From: Pseudooceanicola onchidii
GTDB taxonomy: Bacteria; Pseudomonadota; Alphaproteobacteria; Rhodobacterales; Rhodobacteraceae
Length of the DNA stretch: 64,000 bases
Direction of reading: 5' to 3'
Assembly (NCBI RefSeq): GCF_004959925.1
Contig: NZ_SPUW01000002.1
Span: 806,001-870,000, forward strand
The position numbers and the translations under genes were made by a program. Below are positions 37,304-44,724 of the stretch, piece by piece; the stretch's first letter is position 1; each line of letters opens with the position of its first letter. Under the pieces are notes generated by a model that was given only the letters and a program-made list of their open reading frames with translations, did not search any database and was not told where the DNA came from.

Positions 37304-37334
37304 TGTGATCACACGCGAAAGTGGTGTGATCACA
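37304..37334. promoter_or_regulatory. Paired palindromes upstream of sucC
   Basis: TGTGATCACA at 37304-37313 and again at 37325-37334, 21 bp from start to start (two helical turns). The near edge is 108 bases from the sucC ATG. The same pair, same spacing and almost the same distance occur before sdhC (44694-44724). It is probably an operator for two dimers of one regulator. It also lies 130 bases before the plus-strand gene at 37465. Confidence 0.8.
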
Positions 37335-37464
37335 GTTGGCTTCCCTAGGGTGTCGGTTCCGACTCACTGACGGTTGGCACGCCGCGTTGACCAAAGGGCA
37401 CCTCGGGGCCGGAACCCGGAGCCCTGCTTGCCGGTTGCCTTTCCAAGTGAGGAAAGGAAACACC

Positions 37465-37794
37465 ATGGACCTGCCAGACTTCAAGACCGACCGCGTGCTG
37501 CCCGACCGGGTGACGTCGAACTGGGATCGGATCGCCCCCTTTGCCTTCGGTTTGGGCATCGTCGCCACCGGTGCGCTGATGTCGCGGTTCCGGCCTAGCG
37601 TGCTGGACATGCCAAGCGCCACGCCCCGCCGCGCCGAACCCCGCCACCGGGCTGCGCGGGCCGTCGCGCGGGTGCGGGACGGGGCGGATCATGTCGCGCC
37701 TGACAACATGTCGTCCAAACTGGGCAAGTCGCTGGTCATGGCCGGGGCCGCCATGCTGGTGGCCCGCGTGCTGGACGAGCTGGTCAGCGACTAA
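37465..37794 (+). CDS. Small membrane-associated protein, unknown
   Basis: 109 residues with two moderately hydrophobic segments (about 24-42, FAFGLGIVATGALMS; and 88-104) around an Arg-rich middle. No family recognised. GGAAAGGAAACACC before the ATG is a good ribosome site. It is divergent from sucC and its stop overlaps the end of the convergent sulfotransferase-like gene by four bases. Confidence 0.7.
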   Translation: MDLPDFKTDRVLPDRVTSNWDRIAPFAFGLGIVATGALMSRFRPSVLDMPSATPRRAEPRHRAARAVARVRDGADHVAPDNMSSKLGKSLVMAGAAMLVARVLDELVSD

Positions 37795-39236
37795 GCGATC
37801 TGGCGGCGCGCGTCATAGGCCGTGATCCACTCCATCCCGCCAAGCGCGTCGATCAGCGGATCCAGGTGTGCCGCGTAGCTGCGCCATTTCCCGACCGAGG
37901 CCGCGCTGACCTTCTGGCGTGCCTGATACCGGCTGGCCGTGGCGATGCGGCCGCCCGTTTGCTCCGGCGCCAGACAGGCCGCATCCCATTGCAGGTCGCA
38001 GGTCGCCAGAACGCGGCGCAGGGTCGGCTCGGGGCTCTGGACGAGCGCTTCGTACTCGACGTGGCAGATCCGGCCGGGCAGGGCGGCGTCCCAGTGCTGC
38101 ATCAGATCGTCGTATAGTCGGAAGTACCGACCCAGGGTCTCGGGCCGATTGGAAAAGGTCAGCCCCGTGCGGAAATTGGCGATGTAGTTCGACAGGCAGG
38201 TGTCCAGCGGATTGCGCCGCAGGTGCAGGATCGGCGCGTCAGCGAAGGTCGCGGCGATCAGGCCGATGTTCCAGAAATTCAGCGGGTTCTTGTCGATGAC
38301 TTGGGGGCGCGCCTGTCCGGCGGCGCGGGCCACGGGGGTGATGTAGGCGCGGGCGATCTCGGCCAACGCCTTGGACGTCATGGCGCTGCGGATGGCCTGA
38401 TCCGGGGCGGTGTCCGGGTTGGCGGCCTGCGCCTTGGCAAAGAACGCGCCGCTGATCCGGTTCAACTCGGGCCGTTCCCCGGCAGTCGCGACTTCGGGGT
38501 GGGCCGCCAGCATCCGCTCAAGCAGCGTTGTGCCGGATCGGGGCATCCCGAGGATGAAGATCGGGCGGGGCCTGGTGCGGGTTGCGCCTGTCAGGGTTTT
38601 GCAGAACTTGGGCGAAAACAGGGACATCTGCCGGGCGGCGACCGCCTGCGTGTCACCGAGGTCCGCCAGCGCAGGCTTCAGGCGATTGCCGCGATCGAAA
38701 TGCGCGAAAGCAGTATCAAAGACACCGCAATCCTGGTGGGCCTTGCCTAGCGCGAAGTGGATCGGGATGCGGTCGGGATCGGGAAGCGTCGGGTCGTCGA
38801 GCGCCGCCTGGCCGGTGGCGAAGATCGGGTCGCCGGGCCGGATCGTGGTCGAGTCGGTCAGGTTCACATAGGCCAGCGCGCACCGGGGATTGATCGCCAG
38901 CGCCTGACGGGCGGCGGCGACCGCATTTGCGAAATCCCCGACCTCGTTCAGGATCGCGGCGCGGGTCTGCGGGATATGGCTGTTGTCCGGGGCGAGGGTC
39001 GCGGCGCGGTCCAGCAGGTCAAGTGCGTCCCTGGTCGCCCCGCGCAACCGTGTTCCGGTGATGGCCTTGCCGACCAGCGCGGGCACCATGTCCGGCGCGG
39101 TGTCCAGCAGATCTGCATAGAGCCGATCCGCCCCGGCAAGATCTCCTGCTCGGAACGCCGTTTCGGCCCTTGAAAGAAGATCGGCCCGGGACCTGTGCGG
39201 GTCCCGGGCCGATCCGGATGTGTCGTTGTCAGCCAA
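37791..39236 (-). CDS. TPR-sulfotransferase family protein
   Basis: 481 residues. The N-terminal half has tetratricopeptide-like repeats (about 15-200). The C-terminal half is a PAPS-dependent sulfotransferase domain: 5'-phosphosulfate loop GMPRSGTTLLERMLAAHP near residue 230 and 3'-phosphate loop HLRRNPLDTCLSNY near 335. Acceptor unknown. The TTG at 39236 is taken because the TPR pattern begins soon after it, but there is no ribosome site and a strong hairpin (39179-39214) overlaps codons 8-20. The next in-frame start is the ATG at 39089. It lies six bases after mdh. Confidence 0.82.
   Translation of the reverse strand: MADNDTSGSARDPHRSRADLLSRAETAFRAGDLAGADRLYADLLDTAPDMVPALVGKAITGTRLRGATRDALDLLDRAATLAPDNSHIPQTRAAILNEVGDFANAVAAARQALAINPRCALAYVNLTDSTTIRPGDPIFATGQAALDDPTLPDPDRIPIHFALGKAHQDCGVFDTAFAHFDRGNRLKPALADLGDTQAVAARQMSLFSPKFCKTLTGATRTRPRPIFILGMPRSGTTLLERMLAAHPEVATAGERPELNRISGAFFAKAQAANPDTAPDQAIRSAMTSKALAEIARAYITPVARAAGQARPQVIDKNPLNFWNIGLIAATFADAPILHLRRNPLDTCLSNYIANFRTGLTFSNRPETLGRYFRLYDDLMQHWDAALPGRICHVEYEALVQSPEPTLRRVLATCDLQWDAACLAPEQTGGRIATASRYQARQKVSAASVGKWRSYAAHLDPLIDALGGMEWITAYDARRQIA
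39179..39214 (-). terminator. Terminator of mdh, inside the next gene's first codons
   Basis: GATCGGCCCGGGACC and its exact complement form a 15-bp perfect stem with a 6-base loop. On the minus strand TTCTTTC follows. It lies 29-64 bases past the mdh stop, within the first codons of the sulfotransferase-like gene. Confidence 0.75.
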
Positions 39237-39242
39237 GGGCGA

Positions 39243-40205
39243 TCAGGCGAGAGAGCTGTCGATGCCCTTGCAGGCGTCCACGAGGCCTTTCACGGCCGCG
39301 ACGGACTTGTCGAACATGTCCTGCTCTTCCTTGTTGAGCGTGATGTTGACGATCTTTTCGATGCCGCCGGCGCCGATCACGGTCGGGACGCCCACGTACA
39401 TGTCCTTCACGCCCAGTTCGCCGTCGCAATAGGCGGCGCAGGGCAGGACGCGCTTCTGATCCTTGAGGTAGGCTTCGGCCATCTCGATCGCAGAGGTCGC
39501 GGGGGCGTAGAAGGCGGAGCCGGTTTTCAGCAGGCCAACGATTTCGGCGCCGCCGTCACGGGTGCGCTGGATGATCGCGTCGAGCTTTTCCTGCGTGGTC
39601 CAGCCCATCTTGACCAGGTCGGGCAGGGGGATGCCGGCGACGGTCGAATAGCGGGCGGAGGGGACCATGGTGTCGCCGTGGCCGCCGAGGACGAATGCGG
39701 TGACGTCCTTCATGGACACGCCGAATTCGGTCGCGAGGAAGTGGCGGAAGCGCGCGCTGTCGAGAACGCCGGCCATGCCGCAGACCTTGTTTGCGGGCAG
39801 GCCCGAGAACTGCTGCAGCGCCCAGACCATCGCGTCGAGCGGGTTGGTGATGCAGATGACGAAGGCGTCGGGTGCGTTGGCCTTGATGCCTTCGCCGACG
39901 GACTTCATGACCTTGAGGTTGATGCCCAGCAGGTCGTCACGGGACATGCCCGGCTTGCGCGGGACACCGGCGGTCACGATGCAGACGTCGGCGCCGGCGA
40001 TGTCGGCGTAATCCTGCGTGCCCTTCAGCGTGGCATCGAACCCTTCGGACGGGCCGGATTCCGCGATATCGAGCGCCTTGCCTTCGGGGGTGCCTTCGGC
40101 AATGTCGAACAGAACGACGTCGCCCAGTTCTTTGAGTGCTACGAGATGGGCGAGCGTGCCGCCGATCTGACCTGCGCCGATGAGGGCGATCTTGGGTCGT
40201 GCCAT
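39243..40205 (-). CDS. mdh: Malate dehydrogenase
   Basis: NAD-dependent oxidation of malate to oxaloacetate. 320 residues of the lactate-dehydrogenase-like class: NAD loop [29 protein letters not shown] with the substrate Arg residues, [10 protein letters not shown], and the catalytic His in GGHGDTMVP. It is on the same strand as sucC but separated by two genes; the strong hairpin after it suggests its own transcript. Confidence 0.97.
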
Positions 40206-43937: not shown

Positions 43938-44609
43938 GTGAAACTTATTGCCGCTTCCGCTCTTGCCCTTTCGATGACCTCCATGGCGGCTTCGGCTGCG
44001 GTCGTTGTGTACAGCGACCAGTCCAAGTTTGATCTGGCGGTTGCTGGCGGAACGCCTCTCAGGTCGTTCGACTTCTCCGGGGTTACCGCAACGTATTCGC
44101 TCAGCCGCGCGGGCGTAGAGATTACGTCTTTCGGCAACACGATGGAAACCAGATCCAACTCTTTCGGGACTTTCCTGTATTCGATCGTGGATGACCCCTA
44201 CGTTGTGGGGCAAAACAAATACCAGGTTTGGTCATTCGCCGACGACACTTATGCGATCGGGTTCGATTTTCGCGGTGCAGGGGCAGAGAACCTGACACAC
44301 GAATCCGTCCGTATCACGATTGGTTTTGGCGGTCAGAATGCAGTCGCCGAACTGGCGTTCGTCGGCGGTGAGCATGCGCGGTCTGGATTTGCCGGTTTCG
44401 TGTCGTCGACTCCGTTCACAAAGATCATGTTTGACGGCGATGGTGGTACCGGTGAGGATGACTATTATATCGGGAACGTCGAAACGCATGGCGATCTAGG
44501 GCAGCCAGACCCGACGCCGGGAGCCCAGGTCCCCCTTCCCGCCGGCCTGCCGCTTCTGGCCGGGGGTCTACTGGCCTTCGGTCTGCTGGGGCGTCGCCGC
44601 AAGGGCTGA
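43938..44609 (+). CDS. Secreted VPLPA-CTERM protein
   Basis: 223 residues. Signal peptide at residues 1-23 (KLIAASALALSMTSMAASA) and the sorting tail VPLPAGLPLLAGG, a hydrophobic segment, then RRRK. This matches the VPLPA-CTERM signal seen in rhodobacters, where an exosortase-like system anchors or processes exported proteins. The body is beta-rich with no known domain. It starts with GTG at 43938, with GGGGAAAA before it. Base composition is visibly less GC-rich than its neighbours, which may mean a more recent arrival. It interrupts mch and sdhC. Confidence 0.88.
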   Translation: MKLIAASALALSMTSMAASAAVVVYSDQSKFDLAVAGGTPLRSFDFSGVTATYSLSRAGVEITSFGNTMETRSNSFGTFLYSIVDDPYVVGQNKYQVWSFADDTYAIGFDFRGAGAENLTHESVRITIGFGGQNAVAELAFVGGEHARSGFAGFVSSTPFTKIMFDGDGGTGEDDYYIGNVETHGDLGQPDPTPGAQVPLPAGLPLLAGGLLAFGLLGRRRKG

Positions 44610-44635
44610 TCCCGACCTGTCACGTCGACGCAGCG

Positions 44636-44655
44636 CGTCGCCCCCGGGCGACGCG
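44636..44655 (+). terminator. GC hairpin after the VPLPA-CTERM gene
   Basis: GCGTCGCC/GGCGACGC, 8-bp stem and 4-base loop, 27 bases past the stop. No U-run, so termination is only a possibility. Confidence 0.4.
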
Positions 44656-44693
44656 AGTCGCGGTCGTGGATCAGGGTTGCCAAATGCTTATCC

Positions 44694-44724
44694 TGTGATC
44701 ACACGGCACATTCATGTGATCACA
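44694..44724. promoter_or_regulatory. Paired palindromes upstream of sdhC
   Basis: TGTGATCACA at 44694-44703 and 44715-44724, 21 bp start to start, with the near edge 106 bases from the sdhC ATG. Identical in element, spacing and placement to the pair upstream of sucC (37304-37334). Probably an operator for a shared TCA-cycle regulator. Confidence 0.8.

Follow-up and report, generated by a model that had tools for sequence, protein, structure and literature searches.

Paired palindromes before sucC and sdhC of Pseudooceanicola onchidii as the probable operator of the GntR-family regulator AkgR

Paired palindromes before sucC and sdhC and their recurrence in relatives

A stretch of 64,000 nucleotides from Pseudooceanicola onchidii (contig NZ_SPUW01000002.1, positions 806,001 to 870,000; hereafter the window) contains two operons of the tricarboxylic acid (TCA) cycle, suc and sdh, and each is preceded by two identical copies of the palindrome TGTGATCACA (Table 1). 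A first-pass annotation of the window had drawn attention to these pairs and proposed that one dedicated regulator binds them as two dimers and sets both operons. The features that it described are confirmed by exact search. There are four copies of TGTGATCACA in the window and no others, the start-to-start distance is 21 bp in both pairs, and the near edge of the pair is 108 bp from the ATG of sucC and 106 bp from the ATG of sdhC. The annotation also considered chance unlikely, and the numbers agree: dinucleotide shuffling of the window gives an expectation of 0.09 copies, and four or more copies were seen in 0 of 100 shuffles. Its guess of a single TCA regulator is supported by the placement of the pair in relatives, and the regulator that it left unnamed can probably be named as AkgR, a member of the GntR/FCD family.

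Table 1. Features of the suc and sdh region (positions in the window)
Feature	Position	Strand	Remarks
Candidate AkgR palindrome TGTGATCACA, sucC-proximal	37304..37313	.	Pair at matching place 5' of sucC in 30 other fetched loci
Candidate AkgR palindrome TGTGATCACA, sucC-distal, 21 bp from proximal copy	37325..37334	.	Same pair as 37304..37313
Candidate AkgR palindrome TGTGATCACA, sdhC-distal	44694..44703	.	Pair at matching place 5' of sdhC in 28 other fetched loci
Candidate AkgR palindrome TGTGATCACA, sdhC-proximal	44715..44724	.	Same pair as 44694..44703
sucC, beta subunit of succinyl-CoA synthetase; opens the presumed suc operon	36002..37195	-	Pfam/NCBIfam
Rest of presumed suc operon	sucD 34491-35375, sucA 30851-33889, sucB 29315-30844		
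sdhC, cytochrome b556 subunit of succinate dehydrogenase; start of sdhC-D-A-B, which extends to 48228	44831..45220	+	Pfam/NCBIfam
Putative sucC promoter	37229..37257	-	-35 TTCATA (37257-37252), 17 bp, -10 CAGTAC (37234-37229)
Putative sdhC promoter	44772..44799	+	-35 ATGACA (44772-44777), 16 bp, -10 TAAGAC (44794-44799)

The exact pair is confined to the two TCA operons. In the whole genome of 3,671,680 bases, TGTGATCACA-N11-TGTGATCACA occurs only before sucC and sdhC, and the reversed-pattern control has no matches. The core pair with up to two mismatches is found at nine places, seven of which have two mismatches. Many copies unrelated to metabolism, which the first-pass annotation had named as evidence that would count against its proposal, were not found in the search for exact pairs. 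Outside the window TGTGATCACA occurs singly at two positions, C2:153130 and C2:963361. These belong to the 13 single matches to YGTGATCACR outside the window; the remaining 11, among the matches listed, all lie within open reading frames (ORFs), which is weak evidence of coding position because the genome is G+C-rich. The copy at C2:153130 is the self-site of the regulator gene discussed below. The copy at C2:963361 (L067:4962-4971) is directly 5' of the start codon of a large ORF of at least 1,671 amino acids, which runs to the end of the fetched stretch, and it could be a lone AkgR site or a chance occurrence. The sucC pair also faces a small divergent ORF (37465-37794, + strand) 130 bp away, so the P. 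onchidii sequence alone does not decide the target gene; the constant neighbour in relatives is sucC.

The pair is widespread in the Rhodobacteraceae, and in the family genomes of a 60-genome sample it precedes TCA cycle genes. The search of these 60 genomes, including P. onchidii, used the core pair GTGATCAC-N12-14-GTGATCAC, which fixed the core and the spacer range. The core pair was found in 33 genomes, comprising 32 of the 36 genomes of the same family and one of the 24 outside it. A lack of conservation in relatives, the other counter-evidence named by the first-pass annotation, was thus not seen. All 61 core pairs of the 32 family genomes precede TCA genes: 31 are before sucC, 29 before sdhC, and one before a probable fumC. 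Their distance to the gene is 96-149 bp for sucC (median 109) and 106-150 bp for sdhC (median 118), and the spacing is 21 bp in 58 pairs and 20 bp in three. Further placements were examined in G141, G159, and G096 (two pairs each), G078 (its one pair), G138 (one of two pairs), G087 (one of three), and G085 (two pairs with one mismatch). The probable fumC is in G001 (pair at L131:477-505), where the first 118 residues are best matched by class II fumarase; the score is under the curated cut-off, as expected of a fragment. A second pair before a probable fumC is found in G087 (L251:1594-1622), suggesting that the presumed regulon reaches fumarase in two sampled genomes.

The spacing and the edges of the palindromes also appear to be conserved. 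When spacers of 2-32 were allowed in 61 genomes, 100 pairs were found, and 93 of them had a spacer of 12-14. Of the seven pairs with another spacer, six were fetched; five of these fall in open frames, and the one in G087 lies outside the five frames shown. This last pair (G087:C12, L256:1513-1551) consists of two copies of GTGATCAC 31 bp apart, or three helical turns, 5' of a small outer-membrane-protein-like ORF. In alignments of the upstream regions, the invariance of the core is no evidence because the search pattern demanded it. The four edge bases, which were outside the search pattern, reach 1.65 bits in 29 sucC regions and 1.07 bits in 28 sdhC regions. The corresponding values are 0.50 and 0.30 bits for the nine middle bases, 0.16 and 0.18 bits for the left flank, and 0.56 and 0.30 bits for the stretch 3-40 bases to the right.

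Blocks that resemble promoter elements are found between the pairs and the genes. Of the 29 aligned regions upstream of sucC, 23 have TT[CTG]A[TC] at offset 46, counted from the edge of the pair, and of the 28 upstream of sdhC, 18 have ATGACA at offset 56-59. In P. onchidii ATGACA is at offset 47, and it was not found in eight of the 28 sdhC regions. These blocks may serve as promoters of sucC and sdhC.

A GntR-family regulator that accompanies the pairs

One GntR gene of P. onchidii carries the palindrome in its own promoter. The genome has 19 GntR-domain matches, 18 of them over the cut-off, and the gene at G000:C2:152476-153120 (- strand), about 690 kb from sdh, has TGTGATCACA upstream. Its product of 215 amino acids belongs to the FCD subfamily of the GntR family, with an N-terminal GntR winged helix (PF00392, 54.6 bits, cut-off 27) and a C-terminal FCD domain (PF07729, 64.6 bits, cut-off 24.3) found by profile search. 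Among solved structures, its top-scoring relative in a profile comparison is McbR (4p9f). In the self-site of this gene, designated akgR here, the core GTGATCAC starts 13 bp downstream of a TTGAC element and 18 bp upstream of the presumed start codon. Of 33 distinct orthologues, taken from 34 loci because one gene was fetched twice, 27 have a self-site just upstream. A self-site is also found in 71 of the best 80 of at least 562 confirmed named-record loci, including many from Roseovarius, Ruegeria, and Pseudooceanicola; this set leans to the genus of the window and its near kin because the closest loci were taken.

The self-site is often absent where akgR is close to the operons with the pair. 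It is missing in six of the nine genomes in which about 16 kb at most separates akgR from a suc or sdh pair (absent in G022, G027, G031, G032, G033, and G096; present in G024, G034, and G078) and in one of 26 other distinct genomes. Similarly, it is absent from four of the five named-record loci, among the best 80, with suc genes in the flanks, compared with five of the other 75. This pattern may reflect kinship.

The regulator and the pair occur together across the sampled genera. With one genome per genus from 120 genera, P. onchidii included, a strict E cut of up to 1e-60 for the regulator, and the exact core with a spacer of 12-14 for the pair, 102 genera have both, 13 have neither, one has the regulator only, and four have the pair only. 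The pair is therefore present in 106 of the 120 genera, and the Fisher p value for co-occurrence is 3.7e-13, a statistic that ignores relatedness. In the sample of 60, each of the 31 other pair-bearing family genomes has an orthologue at least 65% identical. G025, G029, and G035 have neither pair nor orthologue (best matches 35, 26, and 29%), and in G020, which is 66% complete, the orthologue is present and the pair was not found. In G085, the genus with the regulator only, one pair is present before sucC and another before sdhC, each with one mismatch. Among the pair-only genera, G078 encodes a 47% homologue, whose gene shares a contig with the pair and has a palindrome of its own.

The regulator probably corresponds to AkgR of Rhodobacter sphaeroides, which we take to be RSP_0981. 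Imam and colleagues are said to have described AkgR in mBio in 2015 as RSP_0981 and as an activator of TCA genes. In the predictions given in PMC4344238, the GntR regulator RSP_0981 regulates RSP_0967-6 (succinyl-CoA synthetase), RSP_0974-6 (succinate dehydrogenase), and RSP_0965-62 (2-oxoglutarate dehydrogenase). The relevant section of PMC6365646 identifies GTGATCAC among AkgR binding sites and calls AkgR a transcriptional activator. Table 3 of PMC4344238 provides 24-base motifs with R. sphaeroides peak coordinates, and on contig C4 of G096 three of the 24-mers from chromosome 1 map within the peak ranges given for them, so the coordinates of G096 are those of R. sphaeroides 2.4.1.

The same pairs are found near the orthologue in G096. 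The gene order is sucB-sucA-sucD-sucC, pair, mdh, malyl-CoA-lyase-like, nnrU-like, mesaconyl-CoA-hydratase-like, pair, sdhC-D-A-B, and a GntR gene about 0.75 kb beyond sdhB, with the pairs preceding sucC and sdhC. From its position, family, and predicted targets this GntR gene is likely to be RSP_0981, and its product is 74% identical to the 215-residue GntR/FCD protein of P. onchidii. P. onchidii is like R. sphaeroides in its orthologue, in the GTGATCAC motif in the target promoters, which the PMC6365646 section ties to AkgR sites, in its presumed targets sucCD-sucAB and sdh, which are those predicted for RSP_0981 in PMC4344238, and in a similar gene order around the sites. They differ in that akgR of G096 is close to sdh and has no self-site, while akgR of P. 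onchidii is distant from sdh and has one.

A text search of the literature for TGTGATCACA and GTGATCAC gave PMC6365646 as the sole relevant match, judged by title. No description was found in a literature search for regulation of these genes, whose coverage was incomplete, so this is no evidence of absence. PMC6365646 also describes PS417_07240, a GntR-like protein of the Pseudomonas simiae deoxyribonate cluster that is 32% identical to AkgR. It has GTGATCAC as a conserved palindrome at -47 to -40 from the start codon, but it belongs to another pathway, and the account of it in that paper mentions no double site. Another central carbon regulator, the LacI-family protein CceR (RSP_1663), is predicted on mdh and sdh in R. 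sphaeroides in the PMC4344238 account. Its predicted motif there, [AGT]GTT-N6-8-AAC[ACT], differs from the P. onchidii palindrome. CceR was rejected as the protein that recognizes TGTGATCACA, which has no GTT and AAC halves; the search for CceR halves covered the palindrome, not the rest of the promoters.

Proposed mechanism and alternative explanations

The paired palindromes are best explained as the operator of AkgR, acting as an activator of suc and sdh, with a probability of about 0.88. The most likely arrangement is two AkgR dimers next to each other on the same face of the DNA, with 21 bp or two turns between them. The pair would be centred at roughly -87 to -120 relative to the transcription start; if the conserved blocks are -35 elements, the centre of the proximal palindrome would be near -87 to -99 and that of the distal one near -108 to -120. 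From these sites AkgR would activate sucCDAB and sdhCDAB together, and the probable fumC as well in two sampled genomes, so that its targets would form a contiguous arc of the TCA cycle from 2-oxoglutarate to malate. Two dimers two turns apart and far upstream fit activation better than blocking. At akgR itself the single palindrome overlaps the probable -10 region. A dimer on that site would obstruct the promoter, so AkgR probably limits its own synthesis. A tentative extension, given slightly less than even odds, is that the number and position of sites set the sign of control, the in-phase double site upstream activating the arc and the single -10 site repressing akgR. If so, AkgR would be a dedicated sensor of flux through the 2-oxoglutarate-to-malate arc.

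Several points weigh against the assignment to AkgR. Binding, occupancy by two dimers, and activation as opposed to repression in P. onchidii, along with direct control of both operons, autorepression, and the transcription starts, are inferred. The genus of the window contributes 22 of the 36 family genomes, and the co-occurrence counts come from related, hence not independent, genera. No self-site was found in six of the 33 orthologues, nine of the best 80 named-record loci, and G096. The exact pair was not found in the best 80 named-record akgR loci, in which sucC is present in only three, with its upstream region cut off. In three of the pair-only genera the homologues are all distant (35% in G064, 26% in G141, and 34% in G159), so the protein acting there would be a different one, or a regulator that has diverged or is missing from the assembly. 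Finally, the identification of AkgR with RSP_0981 and its role as a TCA activator lean on papers that cite the original description.

Many GntR/FCD proteins are repressors, and the single site on the -10 region of akgR looks repressive. AkgR might then bind the pairs as a repressor or roadblock that is lifted by an inducer. This is unlikely, since the pairs end 46 bp upstream of the promoter-like blocks in 23 of 29 sucC regions and 56-59 bp upstream in 18 of 28 sdhC regions, which is too far for a direct block of polymerase if the blocks are promoters. The term transcriptional activator in the AkgR passage of PMC6365646 also argues against it. It is considerably less probable that another GntR/FCD paralogue binds the pairs. 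Many family genomes carry paralogues of roughly 33-40% identity, and there are the three pair-bearing genera without a close orthologue. In addition, the sole pair outside the family, in G049 (L139:4809-4838; 22-bp spacing), is linked to a GntR gene. Against a paralogue, 13 of the 17 genera without an orthologue (E up to 1e-60) also lack pairs, and G078 has its 47% homologue near the pair. The presence of the palindrome in the promoter of akgR itself in most of the best 80 loci, and the position of the gene near sdhB in G096, likewise favour AkgR.

The two remaining explanations have very little in their favour. The half-sites TGTGA and TCACA resemble Crp half-sites, but they abut without the 6-bp spacer in all four window copies (the relatives were searched for the abutting form only). 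Crp/Fnr-type sites that have lost their spacer are highly improbable, and the first-pass annotation was right that these are not normal Crp/Fnr sites. Palindromes can form hairpins, and a terminator, a cruciform, a restriction remnant, or plain chance might be considered. This has an almost negligible probability given the shuffling and reversed-pattern results, the presence of the pair in so many genera, and its preferred spacing, and it is refuted by recurrence at fixed places before sucC, sdhC, and the probable fumC.

For R. sphaeroides, the regulator, its motif, and its targets have been published before. What may be new is the recurrence of the double-site layout, together with the frequent self-site and the occasional site before fumC; that the in-phase double site has been retained across the family adds modestly to the published picture. 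The AkgR assignment would turn an unexplained motif into a named, testable circuit in which one regulator joins two core TCA operons in a large bacterial family. The fixed geometry of the double site and the variable self-site and fumC site would provide handles on activation by two dimers and on regulon spread.

Neighbouring genes

The G049 pair is about 84 bp before a TonB-receptor-like ORF that adjoins the GntR/FCD-like gene, whose product is 32% identical to AkgR and may be a paralogue that recognizes the same sequence. In the window, the region between mdh and sdhC (41085-43779) encodes malyl-CoA-lyase-like (HpcH/HpaI), NnrU-like, and mesaconyl-CoA hydratase proteins, in an order common to G096. 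Directly 5' of the sdhC pair is an ORF (43896-44609) with a C-terminal tail of PLPAG, a hydrophobic segment, and RRRK, which resembles a VPLPA-CTERM sorting signal. In G096 the preceding gene stops about 45 bp before the sdhC pair, leaving no room for a counterpart of this ORF. Just 3' of sucB, three short tandem membrane-protein-like ORFs (28063-29310, - strand) are similar to one another, and we take them to be MAPEG-like.

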